Below the pieces are notes generated by a model. The model had not been told where the DNA came from and did not search any database. It was given only the letters and a program-made list of their open reading frames with translations. From the IMG/VR virus record IMGVR_UViG_3300030117_004414, positions 1 to 22,579 of that record: a stretch of DNA of 22,579 nt; one strand, written 5' to 3'. The translations under genes and the position numbers were made by a program. Source of the DNA: a virus. Below are positions 1 to 20,180 of the stretch, in pieces (positions within the stretch are counted from its first letter, which is position 1; each line of letters starts with the position of its first letter).

Positions 1-83
1 CTCGATGTAAAACTCTTCCCACCTTCATACCCTCTGACTAGGAAATCATTCCCAACCATCTGGACATTGGTGTAATACCTCAT
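1..83 (-). CDS. gp43: DNA polymerase gp43, N-terminal fragment (partial)
   Basis: Only the first 27 codons are inside the window; the gene continues past the left edge. The start codon at 83-81 overlaps the TGA of the radical SAM gene (ATGA). The peptide begins MRYYTNVQMVGN and continues LVRGYEGGKSF. This resembles the first strands of T4-type family B polymerases (T4 gp43 begins MKEFYISIETVGNNI) and the cyanophage forms that read roughly YTNV-MVGN---RGYE-GK. It would be the replicative polymerase with 3'-5' exonuclease, working with the gp44/62 loader and gp45 clamp encoded upstream in the same operon. Position at the end of the regA-gp62-gp44-gp45 cluster fits the T4-type order. The identification rests on a short stretch plus synteny; the catalytic motifs are outside the window. 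Confidence 0.8.
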   Translation of the reverse strand, partial: MRYYTNVQMVGNDFLVRGYEGGKSFTS

Positions 84-1543
84 GCTATAAGTTGTCTCAG
101 TTTGCCTTCTCCTATTCTATCACGTTGTACAGTATTTTCACGGAAGTACTTACCAAAATTATTATACATGTCGTAGATTTCTTTTTTATTCATGTATGGG
201 CGTGGCATATTGAGGAAACTACCTTGATCATCATTAATCATTTCTACAATTAGATCATCACTTATAAAACCTGCATCTACACACATATCTCTCATAGGTG
301 TTCCGTGATATGGTGTGTAGATAAAGGCATTGATGTCACTACAATTCAATTGTGATGCCAACTCCACAGACTTCCAACAATTTTCTAAGGTTTCGTATGG
401 ATATCCTATAATAAAATTGCAAGTAGTAGAAAGACCTGCCTCTGTTGCAATATCAAATGCTTCAATTGCTTTTGTATTTTCATATATCCTACCTATCACA
501 TCTCTACGAAACTTTGGATCACCATGCTCCACACCCATGTTCAGTTTTATACAACCCAATTCCTTCAATGTCTTTGCTTGATATGGTGAAAGAAGTTCTG
601 GTCTTGTTTGTGTAAAGAAAGGTAATTTGTATTTACTATACATTGTAGCCCACTTATCAAACTCTTTCTTTGACATGGTAAGAAATGTGTCTGTAACTAT
701 CCACAGATATTCTACTTCTATAGTGTCAAGCAAATGTTTTATTTCTTCTTCTTGGTGTTCAACACTTCTTTTTCTAAAGAATAAACTATCAGTTTCTTCT
801 TTGTATATTCCAGCATTAGATGGTGAATTGCAAAACTTACATTTGAAAGGACAACCACGTTGTGTTTCTATTGTAGCAATTTTTATTATCTCTCCTTGGA
901 ATGGTCTATACAAAGACCTCTTGTCAAAGATATCATGATCTGTGGACGGTAATGTATTCACATTCAATGCAGGTCTCATCGGATTAGGATGAACGTTTGC
1001 CAGATGATGTCCTGTTTTACCTTCACTTATAAGATCCATCAACTCAGGTATCACCTCATCACCTTCCCCTCTACAAATATAATCAACTTGTCCTTCAAAT
1101 GCTTTGGGATTATATGTGCAAAAAACACCACCTGCAACACTTATAAATTTTTGGTCAGAAACTTTATCAATAAATCTCTTCCAAATATAATATGTGTCTT
1201 CTACGATTGATGATATAACAACATCTGGTTTGAAATCTATTACTTTCTGTCTCCACGCTGTGTACATATCAGTATCTTCAAGCATGAAGAAATCTTTTTC
1301 AACATCATCTCTTTTCCATTCATAGTCAGGAAACATTTGTCTCTTTATTCTCTCATTATCTCTATCCACTAGATGATGTACATCATCATTATCAATTGGA
1401 TACCATGTTGCATCAAATAATTCTATGTTATGATAACCTGCTCTCTTCAAACATGCAGTGATAATAGCAATGCCACCTGGCGGTGTTACTCTCATGTGCT
1501 GGTTAGGATATAACCAAAGTATTCTAAGATTCTTTTGTAACAT
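80..1543 (-). CDS. B12-binding-type radical SAM protein
   Basis: A 487-residue protein with two recognisable parts. Residues about 6-175 look like the Rossmann-type cobalamin-binding domain of B12-dependent radical SAM enzymes: a YPN...TPPGGIAIITACLKRAG opening, a FKPDVVISSIVEDTY strand-turn, VAGGVFCTYNP and a terminal YICRGEGDEVIPELMDLI. Residues about 222-400 are the radical SAM barrel, with the [4Fe-4S] motif CxxxCxxC at Cys231, Cys235 and Cys238, then MGVEHGDPKFRR and IIGYPYET, as in the barrel's later strands. The histidine of the classical DxHxxG cobalamin motif is not evident, so B12 may bind base-off or not at all. Family members mostly methylate or rearrange unactivated carbons; the substrate cannot be read from sequence. 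The gene overlaps the small gene upstream by 20 bases and the gp43 start by four, so it is co-transcribed with the replisome. Confidence 0.85.
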   Translation of the reverse strand: MLQKNLRILWLYPNQHMRVTPPGGIAIITACLKRAGYHNIELFDATWYPIDNDDVHHLVDRDNERIKRQMFPDYEWKRDDVEKDFFMLEDTDMYTAWRQKVIDFKPDVVISSIVEDTYYIWKRFIDKVSDQKFISVAGGVFCTYNPKAFEGQVDYICRGEGDEVIPELMDLISEGKTGHHLANVHPNPMRPALNVNTLPSTDHDIFDKRSLYRPFQGEIIKIATIETQRGCPFKCKFCNSPSNAGIYKEETDSLFFRKRSVEHQEEEIKHLLDTIEVEYLWIVTDTFLTMSKKEFDKWATMYSKYKLPFFTQTRPELLSPYQAKTLKELGCIKLNMGVEHGDPKFRRDVIGRIYENTKAIEAFDIATEAGLSTTCNFIIGYPYETLENCWKSVELASQLNCSDINAFIYTPYHGTPMRDMCVDAGFISDDLIVEMINDDQGSFLNMPRPYMNKKEIYDMYNNFGKYFRENTVQRDRIGEGKLRQLIA

Positions 1544-9459: not shown

Positions 9460-9771
9460 TTACTTGTCATAATCAACAGAGAATGCTGTGGGATTCCCTG
9501 AACTGATTTTATTTGCTTTGTCACGTTTATCACTAAAGTGTAAAAGCAGTATAGCATAATGTATAATTTTTACAATATCATTCCTCGCAGTTCCTTTTCG
9601 ATCATACCTTGAAGCATACTTTAGTATATTACTTCTGCAAAATGCTTCTGCATCTCCAACAGAATCTATCAGGTCTAGAGTTTGAACTCCACCTGTACTG
9701 TAATGCCCTTGGTATGTTCTACTGATATAGTCTGAGATCTCTTTCAAGATCTCATTTTCACTGTACTTCAT
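9460..9771 (-). CDS. DUF3310 (SaV-like) protein
   Basis: A 103-residue protein carrying the DUF3310 pattern: HYSTGGVQTLDLIDSV (residues 23-38), then EAFCRSNILKYASRYDRKG and ARNDIVKIIHYAILLLHF. The H-Y, Q-D, N-x-x-K-Y-x-x-R-Y and K-G spacings are typical of this phage and plasmid family, sometimes described as nucleotide-kinase-like though the reaction is not established. It is the first gene after the terminator at 9838-9874 and follows an extended -10 promoter, so it leads the replisome operon. The leader is only about 16 bases and has no clear ribosome site. Confidence 0.82.
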   Translation of the reverse strand: MKYSENEILKEISDYISRTYQGHYSTGGVQTLDLIDSVGDAEAFCRSNILKYASRYDRKGTARNDIVKIIHYAILLLHFSDKRDKANKISSGNPTAFSVDYDK

Positions 9772-9793: not shown

Positions 9794-9823
9794 ATTATAG
9801 CATACCTACTGAGTGTCCTGCAA
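9794..9823 (-). promoter_or_regulatory. Sigma70-type extended -10 promoter of the replisome operon
   Basis: On the minus strand TGCTATAAT (9802-9794) gives an extended -10, with TTGCAG 18 bases upstream (9823-9818). It lies between the terminator of the preceding unit and the DUF3310 start at 9771. The sequence just downstream, TATAAATC (9794-9787), is one base from the T4-type late consensus, so the site may also fire late. Confidence 0.6.
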
Positions 9824-9837
9824 CCCCGACACCACAT

Positions 9838-9874
9838 AAAAAAGCAAACTCCAACAACCCATGTGTTGCTGGAG
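9838..9874 (-). terminator. Rho-independent terminator
   Basis: Arms 9849-9858 and 9865-9874 form a ten-pair stem with one mismatch and a six-base loop. On the minus strand the stem is followed by TTTGCTTTTTT (9848-9838). It ends the short unit carrying the 24-codon gene and the hli cluster and insulates the replisome operon. Confidence 0.85.
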
Positions 9875-9891
9875 GAATTGTTATTATTAGA

Positions 9892-9966
9892 CTACTGATA
9901 AAGATACTGCCCAACATTTGAGTAAGTGTATGCAACTAGAGTGATTAAAAATAAAACTTGATACAT
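9892..9966 (-). CDS. 24-residue hydrophobic peptide
   Basis: A 24-codon frame beginning MYQVLFLITLVAYTYS and ending QYLYQ. Residues 3-14 are a short hydrophobic stretch, so it would be a membrane-associated micropeptide, similar in size to the tiny photosystem and cytochrome subunits, though no specific match is claimed. It is the only frame between a perfect late-promoter box (9996-9989) and a terminator (9874-9838). There is no clear ribosome site. The alternative is that the transcript of roughly 145 bases is a non-coding RNA and the frame is incidental. Confidence 0.45.
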   Translation of the reverse strand: MYQVLFLITLVAYTYSNVGQYLYQ

Positions 9967-9988
9967 GATAGGTAAAAATACTCTCAGG

Positions 9989-9996
9989 TATTTATA
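9989..9996 (-). promoter_or_regulatory. Late promoter, TATAAATA
   Basis: The minus strand reads TATAAATA at 9996-9989, an exact match to the T4-type late -10 element recognised by gp55-containing polymerase. The box is 22 bases upstream of the 24-codon gene, and a terminator follows within about 150 bases. It lies immediately past the stop of the 62-residue gene. Confidence 0.65.
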
Positions 9997-9997
9997 C

Positions 9998-10186
9998 TCA
10001 TGCTCCGTTAGGAGCATAAACTGGTTGTGTTATCCTGATACCTTTACCACGATCATCATCATCGTCATCATTATTAAATGCTCGAAGAATAAGTTCCACC
10101 AACACCAAAGCAGCCATAGGGTAAAAAATCCATATGACTGCTAAGAATGGTGATACTGAATCAGAGTCGGCTATAAAGTCGCTCAT
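9998..10186 (-). CDS. 62-residue membrane protein with poly-Asp tail
   Basis: A small protein beginning MSDFIADSDSVSPFLAVIWI, with one membrane helix, PFLAVIWIFYPMAALVLVEL (about residues 13-32), then a run of six aspartates (NNDDDDDD) and RGKGIRITQPVYAPNGA. The acidic run comes from a GAT/GAC trinucleotide stretch at about 10053-10075. It is downstream of the three hli genes in the same unit, suggesting a thylakoid-membrane role, but no photosystem family is recognised. It has a clear ATG, an untruncated frame and a stop just before a late promoter. Confidence 0.75.
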   Translation of the reverse strand: MSDFIADSDSVSPFLAVIWIFYPMAALVLVELILRAFNNDDDDDDRGKGIRITQPVYAPNGA

Positions 10187-10214: not shown

Positions 10215-10316
10215 TTATGTAAAGTATTTGAAATGAGTATATGCACCTACGATTGCCCAAAAAGCAACCATTGCAAACCTTCCATTGGCTCTCTGCCAAA
10301 TTGCTATGTTACTCAT
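10215..10316 (-). CDS. hli: Short high-light-inducible-like protein (HliC in this cluster)
   Basis: A 33-residue protein beginning MSNIAIWQRANGRFAMVAFW and ending AIVGAYTHFKYFT. It is a single Hli/LHC-type membrane helix with the chlorophyll-binding core reduced to QRANGRFAM: Asn11 and Arg13 are present but the usual Glu is Gln8. Canonical Hli proteins carry ExxNGR; the Glu pairs with an Arg of a partner helix. The ATG overlaps the stop of the preceding short hli (TAATG at 10318-10314), so the two are translated together. Hli proteins bind chlorophyll and carotenoid and dissipate excess light energy at photosystem II during infection. It is shorter than typical phage Hli proteins. Confidence 0.8.
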   Translation of the reverse strand: MSNIAIWQRANGRFAMVAFWAIVGAYTHFKYFT

Positions 10317-10423
10317 TAGAATATACCTGGAATGATTTGACCTGTGGTTGCATAAGCACCGAGTGCTGCTGTGATGCCTAGCATAGCCATCCAACCGTTA
10401 AACTTTTCTGCTTCTGGTGTCAT
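10316..10423 (-). CDS. hli: Short high-light-inducible-like protein (HliB in this cluster)
   Basis: A 35-residue protein beginning MTPEAEKFNGWMAMLGITAA and ending ALGAYATTGQIIPGIF. The Hli motif is present as EKFNGWMAM: Glu6 and Asn9 are kept but Arg is replaced by Trp11. Its C-terminus, GQIIPGIF, matches that of the longer Hli upstream (GQVMPGIF), suggesting duplication followed by loss of the N-terminal half. The stop shares a base with the next hli start (TAATG). Expected to insert as one helix in the thylakoid membrane and to act only as a dimer. About 48 bases separate it from the full-length hli gene, and no strong ribosome site is seen. Confidence 0.85.
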   Translation of the reverse strand: MTPEAEKFNGWMAMLGITAALGAYATTGQIIPGIF

Positions 10424-10471: not shown

Positions 10472-10681
10472 TCAAAAGATGCCAGGCATTACTTGTCCAA
10501 AAAGGACATAGTTGTGTACTGCAGCAAAGAAACCAATCATCGCCATGCGACCATTGAGTTGCTCTGCATTCTTCCAGTACCCTTGATAGTTCTCAACATA
10601 CTGCATAGGTGGCTCAGAACCAAACATGTTCTGTTTGCCATATTCAGTTGTTGTGTACTTCTTGGCAACTGATGAAGTCAT
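10472..10681 (-). CDS. hli: High-light-inducible protein (Hli)
   Basis: A 69-residue photoprotection protein of the LHC superfamily. The membrane helix carries the complete chlorophyll-binding motif AEQLNGRMAMIGFFAAVHNYV, with Glu40, Asn43 and Arg45, followed by a conserved FGQVMPGIF tail. The N-terminal 35 residues are polar with YTTTEYGKQNMFGSEPP, as in many marine phage Hli proteins. It would bind chlorophyll a and beta-carotene as a dimer in the host thylakoid and quench excess energy, keeping photosynthesis running during infection. A TTCACA/TATAAT promoter lies about 30-55 bases upstream, so it leads a unit that includes two shorter hli genes. Confidence 0.95.
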   Translation of the reverse strand: MTSSVAKKYTTTEYGKQNMFGSEPPMQYVENYQGYWKNAEQLNGRMAMIGFFAAVHNYVLFGQVMPGIF

Positions 10682-17000: not shown

Positions 17001-17439
17001 AGCCTGAGGAGAACCTACGCCATTCAATAGCATTCTTTATTTGATAGGTTCTATTAGAAACTTGTCTTAGTATCTCTTCAAGATACTTGAGCATAGCATC
17101 GTAGTATTCTAACTTGAGTTTAGTCTTACTCAATTTTTCATCAGAGTCAAGATACAACTTTAAGTCATCCTTGTCTCTAACTTTATATGGAAATGGTTCT
17201 TCTGCATATATGTCTGCAGTAGCCTTCCCAGTGTAATACTTTCTACGATCTAATAGAATAGAAGAATACTGTTGCTCATCACGTTTCCGCATAAGCAGTA
17301 TCGTATTATATAGGTCGTAATATTTGGCATGTAGTTGTGGTATACGTAAGGATTCGTTATCAAGTTCATCTTGATTCATTACCGAATCTTTACCCCACAT
17401 GTCTTGTATAGCTTCAATAGTACATGGATTAGATTTCAT
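16993..17439 (-). CDS. uvsY: Recombination mediator UvsY
   Basis: A 148-residue protein that in T4 loads the UvsX recombinase onto gp32-coated single-stranded DNA. The family pattern is clear: an N-terminal EAIQDMWGKDSVMNQDELDNESLRIPQLHAKYYDLY, the central LLDRRKYYTGKATADIYAEEPFPYKV, then DSDEKLSKTKLKLEYYDAMLKYLEEILRQVSNRTYQIKNAIEWRRFSSG. The LxxxxNRTYQIKNAIEW ending is the strongest mark. It is slightly longer than T4 UvsY (137). Its ATG overlaps the oxygenase stop (ATGA) and its stop overlaps the uvsW start by eight bases. Confidence 0.93.
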   Translation of the reverse strand: MKSNPCTIEAIQDMWGKDSVMNQDELDNESLRIPQLHAKYYDLYNTILLMRKRDEQQYSSILLDRRKYYTGKATADIYAEEPFPYKVRDKDDLKLYLDSDEKLSKTKLKLEYYDAMLKYLEEILRQVSNRTYQIKNAIEWRRFSSGYG

Positions 17440-18098
17440 TGTGGTCTACCCAATATTTTGTCACCAGACCTAACAGTCTCATGACCAGTCACATAGTTTA
17501 GGAACGTACCTAGTATATACTTTGCATACCCATTTGTACACTCACTACCTTTATGAAGATAACTCCAAGTGCATGGAAACAATAGTATACTGCCTTTTGA
17601 TGGTTTGAACTTTTGATCAAACATTGGAAACAAAGTATGACCACCATCAAAATCATCATTCAAATAGCATATAATAGAAAAGAATCTTTTTGCAGAATCT
17701 TTATTAATTACATCAGAATGAAAGTCATGCTGTTGATTACTATCACATAAGTATCTTTTGATTCTTAGATTTTCAAATGCATATTTTTCAGGCCACTGTG
17801 TATGATGCATATCTACATCTATCTTATACTGTGATAGTGTAGATTGTATACCTTTTATTACTAACTTGAATGGTTCCTTGAATTCTTTATGCTGCATGAT
17901 GTCAAGTCTTTGACAATCACATGCACCACAAGTTTTTACACCCTTATCAGTATAACATAGACTTAATTTTTTTAGAAGATCTGACTGTTCTTTCCAAAGT
18001 CTTTCGTATGTGTTCACTAACGTGTCACATAGTTTACTGTCAAAGACATTCTTATATTCTCTGACGTAAATTGATTCTCCTTTATACTTCTTTTCCAT
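17436..18098 (-). CDS. 2OG-Fe(II) oxygenase (prolyl 4-hydroxylase-like)
   Basis: A 220-residue iron and 2-oxoglutarate dependent dioxygenase from the ATG at 18098 (a TTG three codons upstream is also open). The double-stranded beta-helix motifs are complete: HDFHSD gives the HxD pair (about His127, Asp129), FFSIICYLNDDFDGGHTLFP is the typical YLND-F-GG-T-F strand pair, the distal histidine is in SYLHKG (about 182) and YAKYILGTF supplies the basic residue that binds 2-oxoglutarate. An upstream CGACDC cluster is unusual. Such enzymes hydroxylate proline or other side chains, or oxidise nucleic acids; the substrate is unknown. Oxygenases of this group are common in T4-like cyanophages. It overlaps the upstream structural gene by 17 bases. 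Confidence 0.9.
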   Translation of the reverse strand: MEKKYKGESIYVREYKNVFDSKLCDTLVNTYERLWKEQSDLLKKLSLCYTDKGVKTCGACDCQRLDIMQHKEFKEPFKLVIKGIQSTLSQYKIDVDMHHTQWPEKYAFENLRIKRYLCDSNQQHDFHSDVINKDSAKRFFSIICYLNDDFDGGHTLFPMFDQKFKPSKGSILLFPCTWSYLHKGSECTNGYAKYILGTFLNYVTGHETVRSGDKILGRPQ

Positions 18099-18681
18099 CA
18101 ATGTCAATCACATCAAACATAGTATACTTGAAAGTTGCAGCAGCTGTGTAAAATTCTTGACTTTCCTTAGTATTATCAAAAGGTATTCCACTCAAAGAAA
18201 CTGGGAATAAATCTCTAAACTTTACTTTTACTGTAGGGTTGAAAGAATTGCTTAGTATCAATAGTGTTCCGTCTGATCTATCAGTAGCAGGATCACCAAC
18301 GTCTGCTGCTGTTCCTATAGTTTCTAATTCTGGTAAAAGTCTTTCTTTATCACCTAGTCTAGAATACTGTGCCATCTCTTCTGGATATCCTAATGAAGTC
18401 ATCCAACGATAAAGTTGCAAGTAATTCTCCATGTTCTCATCGACCATGAATGCAATACGCAAATCATCGTATGCCAACTTATCACCAGGAACAGGAATGT
18501 TTCTTAGGTAGGTTGGTTGTACAGCATGACCTAAAGTAATCTCTGGTAAGTTAGCACTATTGCAATAAAAATCTACCTTAGGACAACGTTCTAAGGCAAA
18601 CTTAAATCCTACAACAGAAAGAAAGTTACGGTTAGTAACTTCCTTCCACTTACTTGGGTGCAACGACTTTCGTGTTGGCAT
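18082..18681 (-). CDS. Tail-tube-fold structural protein (gp19/gp54-like; may be the gene called gp3 in cyanophages)
   Basis: A 199-residue virion protein. The pattern VGFKFALERCPKVDFYCNSANLPEITLG, followed by RNIPVPGDKLAYDDLRIAFMVDENMENYLQLYRWMTSLG, follows T4 gp19 (FQCKATALP ... VAGDRTFDDWTVTVMNDE ... FVDWQSIAAG). The C-terminal half, LLILSNSFNPTVKVKFRDLFPVSLSGIPFDNTKESQEFYTAAATFKYTMFDV, also fits the closing strands of that fold. It is longer than gp19 (163) and shorter than gp54 (320). From its position after gp23 and before uvsY, genome annotators may call it gp3 (tail terminator); I cannot settle the name. A near-consensus late promoter box lies 18 bases before the ATG, fitting a late structural gene. 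Confidence 0.8.
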   Translation of the reverse strand: MPTRKSLHPSKWKEVTNRNFLSVVGFKFALERCPKVDFYCNSANLPEITLGHAVQPTYLRNIPVPGDKLAYDDLRIAFMVDENMENYLQLYRWMTSLGYPEEMAQYSRLGDKERLLPELETIGTAADVGDPATDRSDGTLLILSNSFNPTVKVKFRDLFPVSLSGIPFDNTKESQEFYTAAATFKYTMFDVIDIDGKEV

Positions 18682-19077: not shown

Positions 19078-19086
19078 ATTATAACA
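19078..19086 (-). promoter_or_regulatory. Extended -10 facing the 54-residue gene
   Basis: The minus strand reads TGTTATAAT at 19086-19078 with no matching -35. It overlaps the start codon of the divergent plus-strand gene and lies between its own gene and the opposing promoter, so the two promoters would compete. Confidence 0.42.
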
Positions 19087-20180
19087 TGTCTATACCGCTA
19101 ACGCACCTTAGACAAACAATCGCTAACGCAACAATGATTACTATCAAAAAACAGGACATAGTAGGTCCTAATAAACTACCAGGCTTTAACGGAGTAGGAG
19201 AGATAAATTTAGAAAACTTCATAGGTATGGAGATAGAGATACCACAAGGATATGAGTTTGAATCTTTAGGTTCTCTTGATTTAGATACTGAAGTAAATGA
19301 ACTAGATGATATGTGGTCGAATGCTGGTGTAAGAGATGAAGGTAACACTGAAGATAGAATCCAAGCATTACAAAATGGGTTTTTGGTAAAAGGATATCTA
19401 GTAAAACACACACCAGGTATGGGATCTAAAGAAGGTCCAGTAGAAGGTAGAGGTAGATCTCTAGCATCAAAACGAAATGGTGAGAAAAAATTACCTTGGA
19501 TCAATCTTACAAAAATAGAAGATGGTGAAACATCTAGAGTTAGTGGAGGTGTTGAAGAAAACTTAAAGCACGATCCTGCTACTAAAGGAACTAGAGAAGA
19601 TGTTATAACTGCTGGTTTGTACCTAATAGGTAAAGGAGAATTAGAACCAAATGAAGTTGATATAAGAGACTGGTTAAAAGATAGAATACATATTCACAAA
19701 TACTTTATTCAGGCAAATGTTACTATTATTGTAAATGATATAATTAGGAGACATGCTGAAGGTGATAATGTAGTTCTTATCAAAGAAAGAAAACCTTGGA
19801 TGGAAGTCTTAGATAAAGAATTCCATATTCCAGTTGACAACAAAACAACTTTCCTATTTTCCATGGATTCCCACACATATTCATGTCGTTGTTTTTGTGA
19901 AGCAGTATTAGAGTATGGGACAAAAGCTCCAGTAGATATTATACTTTATACAAAAAAGAAATTACCATCAGAAGCAAGAAAGAATCTTGAGATTTTTATA
20001 AGAGATCTTGAAAAATATACTAGACTTACATACAAAGCAATTGGTAATAAAAGAGGTATGAAATTTGAAAATGTTGATATAAAGGAGCATTATAAAATTA
20101 GGGGTTGTATACCACAGTTTATTGAGGATCATAAAGATGAATGGAACTCAAAAGAATTAGTTGATATAGATTCTTACTAA
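19086..20180 (+). CDS. ParB-like nuclease-fold protein, lone plus-strand gene
   Basis: A 364-residue protein, the only plus-strand gene here. Residues about 88-140 resemble the ParB/sulfiredoxin core: EDRIQALQNGFLVKGYLV, a loop, then EGRGRSLASKRNGEKKLPWINL, comparable to the DGxxRxxAxxxNGxxxIPV strand-helix-strand of ParB-like nucleases. The rest is unassigned: LENFIGMEIEIPQGYEFESL near the N-terminus, DVITAGLYLIGKGELEPNEVDIRDWLKDRIHIHKYF in the middle, and SMDSHTYSCRCFCEAVLEYG and LEIFIRDLEKYTRLTYKAIG toward the end. There is no ribosome site before the ATG; an in-frame ATG at 19134 is an alternative. It converges with gp23 across a terminator that serves the gp23 direction. Its strand, own promoter and isolated position suggest later insertion. 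The ParB relation is inference. Confidence 0.85.
   Translation: MSIPLTHLRQTIANATMITIKKQDIVGPNKLPGFNGVGEINLENFIGMEIEIPQGYEFESLGSLDLDTEVNELDDMWSNAGVRDEGNTEDRIQALQNGFLVKGYLVKHTPGMGSKEGPVEGRGRSLASKRNGEKKLPWINLTKIEDGETSRVSGGVEENLKHDPATKGTREDVITAGLYLIGKGELEPNEVDIRDWLKDRIHIHKYFIQANVTIIVNDIIRRHAEGDNVVLIKERKPWMEVLDKEFHIPVDNKTTFLFSMDSHTYSCRCFCEAVLEYGTKAPVDIILYTKKKLPSEARKNLEIFIRDLEKYTRLTYKAIGNKRGMKFENVDIKEHYKIRGCIPQFIEDHKDEWNSKELVDIDSY

Follow-up and report, generated by a model that had tools for sequence, protein, structure and literature searches.

ORF-A, a 24-codon frame in a cyanophage genome fragment, is by sequence comparison a real conserved gene. Its overlap with ORF-B, a gene shared with the host, together with the adjoining light-stress genes, indicates that it probably acts on the photosynthetic membrane of the infected cell and is neither a stand-alone RNA nor a lysis unit. 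The explanation that we favor, at somewhat better than even chances, is that ORF-A encodes a phage-specific micropeptide of the photosynthetic membrane, made along with ORF-B from within a host-type light-stress cassette, and that its translation is gated by the promoter in front of it. The stretch analysed (hereafter the window) is a virus record of 22.6 kb that we assign to a T4-like cyanophage from its gene matches, which comprise the gp45 clamp, the clamp loader, SbcC/D-like nuclease subunits, a DNA helicase, the major head protein and hli genes. The features around ORF-A are the following:

10472–10681, minus strand: second hli gene, further upstream (phrog_178, E 3.3e-23)
10215–10394, minus strand: hli-type frame upstream of the 62-aa gene (phrog_20629, E 6.7e-10)
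9998–10186, minus strand: conserved 62-aa gene (P0002; family of PSSM2_278 / PSSM4_181) directly upstream of ORF-A, its translation matching phrog_7843, of unknown function (E 4.8e-23)
9989–9996, minus strand: late box TATAAATA, a plausible late promoter (exact match), one base past the stop codon of the 62-aa gene
9988–9997, minus strand: upstream arm GTATAAATAC of an inverted repeat, containing the late box (sequence comparison, RNA folding)
9972–9981, minus strand: downstream arm GTATTTTTAC of the inverted repeat, ending 5 nt before the ORF-A start codon
9892–9966, minus strand: ORF-A, a 24-residue hydrophobic uncharged micropeptide, MYQVLFLITLVAYTYSNVGQYLYQ (exact frame match, conservation)
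9795–9917, minus strand: ORF-B, a 40-residue small membrane protein in another frame than ORF-A, with a 26-nt overlap
9849–9874, minus strand: terminator-like hairpin inside ORF-B, formed by the codons for PPATHGLLE (folding, frame position)
9460–9771, minus strand: DUF3310 gene (phrog_480), next after ORF-B and starting 23 bases past it

A preliminary description of this region, made from the letters alone, had reported the exact TATAAATA box and the 24-codon hydrophobic frame, and both are present as described. It had also placed them between two operons with nothing else in the unit, which does not agree with the layout: the 62-aa gene, ORF-A, ORF-B and the DUF3310 gene follow one another on a single strand, from a stop codon immediately before the box to a start codon shortly past ORF-B, and ORF-B is a second conserved frame that overlaps the first. 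What follows the pair in the window is not psbA but replication genes (DUF3310, gp45). Elsewhere the window carries a radical-SAM protein (80–1543, minus strand; Pfam), a 2OG-Fe(II) oxygenase domain protein (17436–18107, minus strand; Pfam) and, on the plus strand close to the major head gene, a 364-aa frame (19086–20180) for which neither PHROG nor Pfam gave a match at E 0.01.

It is conservation that establishes ORF-A, since the frame by itself is weak evidence: the window holds 77 ATG frames of 20–30 codons, and four of them, two being the tails of hli frames, are uncharged and at least 70% hydrophobic. Through the 62-aa gene, which has 198 related stretches in viral_contigs, 80 viral loci were gathered, from which three (L011, L036 and L073) were left out for having less than 200 nt downstream. 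A member of the ORF-A family was present in 75 of the remaining 77 syntenic loci, a count that is partly circular because the profile was built from peptides of those same loci, with P-SSM2, P-SSM7 and ten hand-picked 26-residue peptides added. The two exceptions (L030 and L035) have ORF-B with no ORF-A detected. Independent of the profile are a DNA-only promoter scan, described below, and the isolates P-HM2, P-TIM68, P-RSM6 and P-SSM4.

Members of the family are 23–27 residues long and mostly uncharged: of 84 distinct peptides, 79 lack K, R, D and E altogether and the other five have a single charged residue each. Among the unique 24-codon genes, Phe6 is found in 72/72 and Asn17 in 67/72; in the sets used below for dyad spacing, covariation and openness, Phe6 was required by the candidate filter and is no evidence. 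The window's peptide falls within the family by its length, a Phe at or adjoining position 6, few or no charges, and its place downstream of the 62-aa gene. Comparison of synonymous with nonsynonymous change, which had been proposed as a check, gave a pN/pS of 0.28 (95% interval 0.20–0.34; 33 closest pairs) for ORF-A against 0.83 and 1.81 in the off-frames, and of 0.26 for codons 2–16, ahead of the usual overlap with ORF-B (values are uncorrected and the closest pairs were matched greedily). The earlier proposal of a membrane micropeptide is thus borne out at the level of sequence by a hydrophobic, mostly uncharged frame that is conserved under purifying selection, and the product would be a phage-specific peptide spanning the membrane once.

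ORF-A lies unannotated, in annotation gaps, in P-SSM2, P-SSM4, P-SSM7, P-HM2, P-TIM68 and P-RSM6, and was probably missed because it is shorter than gene callers accept. A gene carried by nearly every related cassette examined is therefore absent from the annotation of six named isolates, and as it fills a gap in the photosynthesis region of model phages already under RNA-seq study, it can be sought there directly. No Pfam or NCBIfam model matches ORF-A, the window's copy has no match to PHROG or to a lysis family, and the one weak PHROG match, which a relative gave at E 0.19, concerns a family with no assigned function; the searches of solved structures and of plasmids returned no ORF-A match, and no description in print was found in the literature searched. 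ORF-A was not found in S-SSM7, P-RSM1 or MbCM1, all three of which have ORF-B. Since ORF-B occurs without a detected ORF-A in these isolates as well as in L030 and L035, ORF-A is not obligatory for it.

ORF-B is itself under purifying selection, with a pN/pS of 0.18 outside the overlap. Its match to the phrog_17067 profile is weak for the window copy (E 0.044) and strong for the P-SSM2 copy (E 8e-18); the same syntenic slot and graded intermediates tie the two together, so that by graded similarity ORF-B can be regarded as phrog_17067-like. That family (phrog_17067 / T4-GC 594, with P-SSM2 PSSM2_279.1 and P-HM2 PHM2_203) is unannotated in several isolates and has no assigned function, and a search of solved structures with ORF-B gave one match, at E 2.4. 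ORF-B starts inside ORF-A in most cases, with an overlap of 26 or 32 nt in 72 of 122 ORF-A entries and of 4 nt in 14 of 122, an arrangement that would also be expected if ORF-A were a leader peptide that brings ribosomes to ORF-B and matters little in itself. We consider this unlikely: selection on the peptide extends outside the overlap (the codons 2–16 above), ORF-A is still kept in the 27 of 122 entries in which the two genes lie 27–486 nt apart, and in L034 and L037 it is followed by psbN and not by ORF-B. A programmed frameshift from ORF-A into ORF-B was set aside, as ORF-B has its own start codon and the spacing of the two reaches hundreds of nucleotides.

The strong terminator of the preliminary description exists as a stable hairpin (−15.2 kcal/mol; z −3.9 relative to dinucleotide shuffles) that is followed by a T-rich tail, but it ends no unit. 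Both stem and tail consist of ORF-B codons, which is not the position of an intrinsic terminator after a last gene, and since the frames run on through it we rejected a terminator closing a free-standing transcript, and with it the dedicated terminator and the transcript of about 145 bases that had been envisaged. Compared with synonymous-codon versions of itself, the hairpin is more stable in phages (32 representatives; mean z −1.05, p 0.008) and not in hosts (28 representatives; mean z −0.15, p 0.46). Among 14 sequences from the window's clade there is little variation in the stem codons, and several codons outside the stem are equally constant. An attenuator within ORF-B is possible. The same stability beyond what synonymous codons predict in phages, and the distance of about 140 nt between the late box and this T-tailed hairpin, would suit a small RNA standing alone between a late promoter and a terminator. 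Two overlapping frames under purifying selection nevertheless fill the unit, most relatives that retain the two frames lack the box, and covariance models at gathering score returned 0 Rfam matches in the window; this leaves the small RNA with hardly any credibility, and on the strength of the codon-level selection and the Rfam result we rejected a phage non-coding RNA, the other product that had been suggested.

To place the pair relative to the host, we turned to bacterial genomes. The scan of GTDB genomes with ORF-B yielded 45 loci, all Prochlorococcus-titled, and ORF-B was found in 120 of 151 Prochlorococcus genomes (E<=0.001), whereas ORF-A was found in 0/151 at the same threshold, its best match reaching E 0.007 over 14 columns. 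Twelve genomes carrying ORF-B gave one ORF-A match, at E 0.35. The same profile detects ORF-A in 6 of 10 phage records, so that divergent members, that of P-HM2 for example, escape it. A host origin of ORF-A was rejected on the result for the 151 genomes at E<=0.001. Prochlorococcus hosts have up to three ORF-B-like genes each, in some loci beside hli-type frames, and these homologues (e.g., those of L258 and L285) are a candidate light-stress micro-protein family.

In a Prochlorococcus single-cell genome (L258), three genes follow one another with no ORF-A: hli, a gene that visual comparison of its acidic run and its ending marks as a homologue of the 62-aa gene, and ORF-B, 15 nt separating the last two. 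The cassette of the hosts comprises hli, the 62-aa-gene homologue and ORF-B, and that of the phages the same genes plus ORF-A. The 62-aa gene belongs to the PMED4_15491 / PSSM4_181 / PSSM2_278 family, as PSSM2_278 and PSSM4_181 lie under its tblastn matches. Steglich et al. 2008 reported this family from many Prochlorococcus as well as from P-SSM2 and P-SSM4, in the vicinity of genomic island 5 (PMC2518516). The family is shared with the host, whereas ORF-A has no host homologue at E<=0.001, and the passages of that paper on the family make no mention of ORF-A. The cassette of phage isolates is surrounded by hli genes, and in several of these isolates psbA comes after it. Two loci additionally carry a gene for PsbN (L034:487–726 and L037:1762–2001, at 28.1 and 30.6 bits against a Pfam PF02468 cutoff of 25), which overlaps the last 4 nt of ORF-A and precedes ORF-B. 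A possible PsbN of Prochlorococcus T4-like phages has already been described as T4-GC163 (PMC3037559). PsbN and the Hli proteins of these phages are therefore neighbors of ORF-A in the same cassettes; unlike them, it matches no domain model. Given the hli, psbA and psbN context and a host cassette that lacks ORF-A, the cassette looks like a host-type light-stress set to which ORF-A, apparently a phage-only addition, was joined.

This context also bears on the lysis or assembly role that the preliminary description had raised, and speaks against it: the surrounding genes are hli, psbA and psbN, and the gene pair is shared in part with the host. A short hydrophobic span and, in the window's clade, a late box are what a small holin-like or lysis-timing peptide made late would show. 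But where relatives have a spacer, the promoter is mostly of the sigma-70 type, the neighbors are photosynthesis genes, the partner ORF-B is a common host gene, ORF-A matches no lysis family, and with hli, DUF3310 and gp45 around it the window's copy does not have the setting of a holin; we regard such a function as very unlikely. On the reading that we prefer, the ORF-A peptide, encoded within the host-type cassette (hli, 62-aa gene, ORF-B) of T4-like cyanophages next to ORF-B and often overlapping it, would insert into the photosynthetic membrane, would serve as a small accessory subunit in concert with ORF-B, Hli proteins or PsbN, and may in this way help photosynthetic electron flow to continue during infection. 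The gene pair is unannotated and widespread; its general kind, small membrane proteins in cyanophage light-stress cassettes, is known, and its dedicated promoter is unusual.

The promoter takes two forms. TATAAATA occurs once in the window, and since chance predicts 2.9 copies this count is no evidence by itself; the evidence is its position and its strand bias in relatives, in which 170 copies lie on the cassette strand and 5 on the other (counted over 796 kb of related loci, some of them overlapping), in many cases a few tens of nucleotides ahead of the 62-aa gene or of another phage gene. By this bias and position it behaves as a late promoter, in agreement with NATAAATA of S-PM2 (PMC2984593), and it conforms to the T4 type (TATAAATA/NATAAATA) in lying upstream of genes on the coding strand. 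Directly before ORF-A, in a short-loop repeat, the box is confined to the window and its close relatives (eight distinct sequences), and a late promoter of ORF-A is plausible for this clade only. At other loci, ORF-A either follows the 62-aa gene by 2–7 nt with no dedicated promoter or is preceded by a spacer with TTGAC, the palindrome GGTAnnnnTACC, TATATA/TATAAT and a second dyad ending a few nucleotides before the start codon. This spacer element is a sigma-70-type promoter and is found in most relatives that have a spacer. The dedicated promoter put forward earlier is accordingly supported in principle, its late form in the window's clade only, and of the conservation that was anticipated, the frame is kept across the syntenic loci while the box at this place is not. 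Running the pattern of the sigma-70-type element alone against 2.9 million viral contigs, the DNA-only scan found 82 sites, 81 of which lead into an ORF-A (66 of 67 unique contexts); the single site preceding another gene (L231) stands before an hli-type frame.

Close inspection reveals that both promoter types sit within an inverted repeat, with two dyads around or within the promoter, and that the downstream arm GTATTTTTAC is conserved in relatives with either type. The arrangement recalls T4 genes e, soc, 49 and I-TevI, in which the start is hidden in a helix, and gene e in particular, whose late promoters are placed so that late RNA lacks the 5' strand of that helix (PMC3014915). As in T4 e and soc, the window's late box is contained in the 5' arm, and, as in gene e, the ORF-A start is predicted to be hidden in read-through RNA only: this RNA folds at a predicted −11.7 kcal/mol (z −2.25) with the ORF-A AUG paired, whereas RNA started at the late box is predicted to be nearly unfolded (−0.9 kcal/mol), the corresponding openness of the start region in the window (L001) being 0.46 and 0.72. 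Across loci, the predicted openness in read-through RNA is 0.38 for 8 late-type, 0.28 for 74 sigma-70-type and 0.51 for 33 loci without the element, these last being controls selected for GGAG close to the start; 51 further candidates of a mixed 'other' class, not all of them ORF-A, give 0.49. We infer that in the window's clade, where the late promoter lies in the 5' arm of the hairpin, read-through RNA would fold and hide the ORF-A start, and that RNA started at the promoter, lacking this arm, would be translated, as for T4 genes e and soc. The likeness of this predicted gating to the T4 cases has its limits, since covariation does not support the window-type pairing and many relatives have a sigma-70-type promoter at the same place. 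The locus nonetheless offers a precise test case for promoter-in-hairpin control outside T4.

Compensatory change in the repeat is slight. In 69 sigma-70-type elements, 693 of 828 cells are paired against 686 in shuffles, a degree of pairing that 16 of 2000 shuffles attain when relatedness is left uncontrolled; in 11 short-loop elements there is no pairing excess over shuffles. With covariation this weak, we did not accept that the two dyads are proven to form a fixed RNA stem. The weakness would be expected if the dyads flanking the promoter were operators, with a repressor that binds both GGTAnnnnTACC, which lies between the −35 and −10 boxes, and the second dyad, which lies at the start point; ORF-A and ORF-B would then be controlled at transcription and the read-through hairpin would be a by-product of two inverted copies of one site. 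Each dyad is palindromic and occupies a classic operator position of a sigma-70 promoter, and in four loci the upstream dyad has been replaced by another palindrome. Against operators, the element occurs once per genome, at ORF-A, in P-TIM68 and P-RSM6, so that no regulon is seen; the spacing of the dyads varies (13–17 nt in the sigma-70-type and 3–4 nt in the short-loop elements), which is unusual for cooperative binding; and the repressor is a hypothetical one. We judge operators less likely than not, yet a serious rival to hairpin gating, and both may apply.

A more far-reaching version of the membrane reading, which we put forward tentatively and consider doubtful as a whole, is that cyanophages invented a 24-residue thylakoid micropeptide that hosts lack and placed it in a light-stress operon captured from the host, in which it would modify ORF-B or the Hli/PsbN photosystem-repair machinery, its synthesis being switched by promoters placed inside a start-hiding hairpin and swapped, late for sigma-70, between lineages.

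With respect to timing, auxiliary metabolic genes, with hli among the labelled ones, are expressed in the middle cluster during P-HM2 infection (PMC5082946), which fits mixed early and late control and says nothing on ORF-A itself. Lastly, the four loci with a different upstream arm (L032, L050, L075 and L152) retain the downstream arm; just upstream of ORF-A, the palindrome between their −35 and −10 boxes is swapped for a AAACCTTAAGGTTT-like one, a replacement that suggests an exchanged operator.
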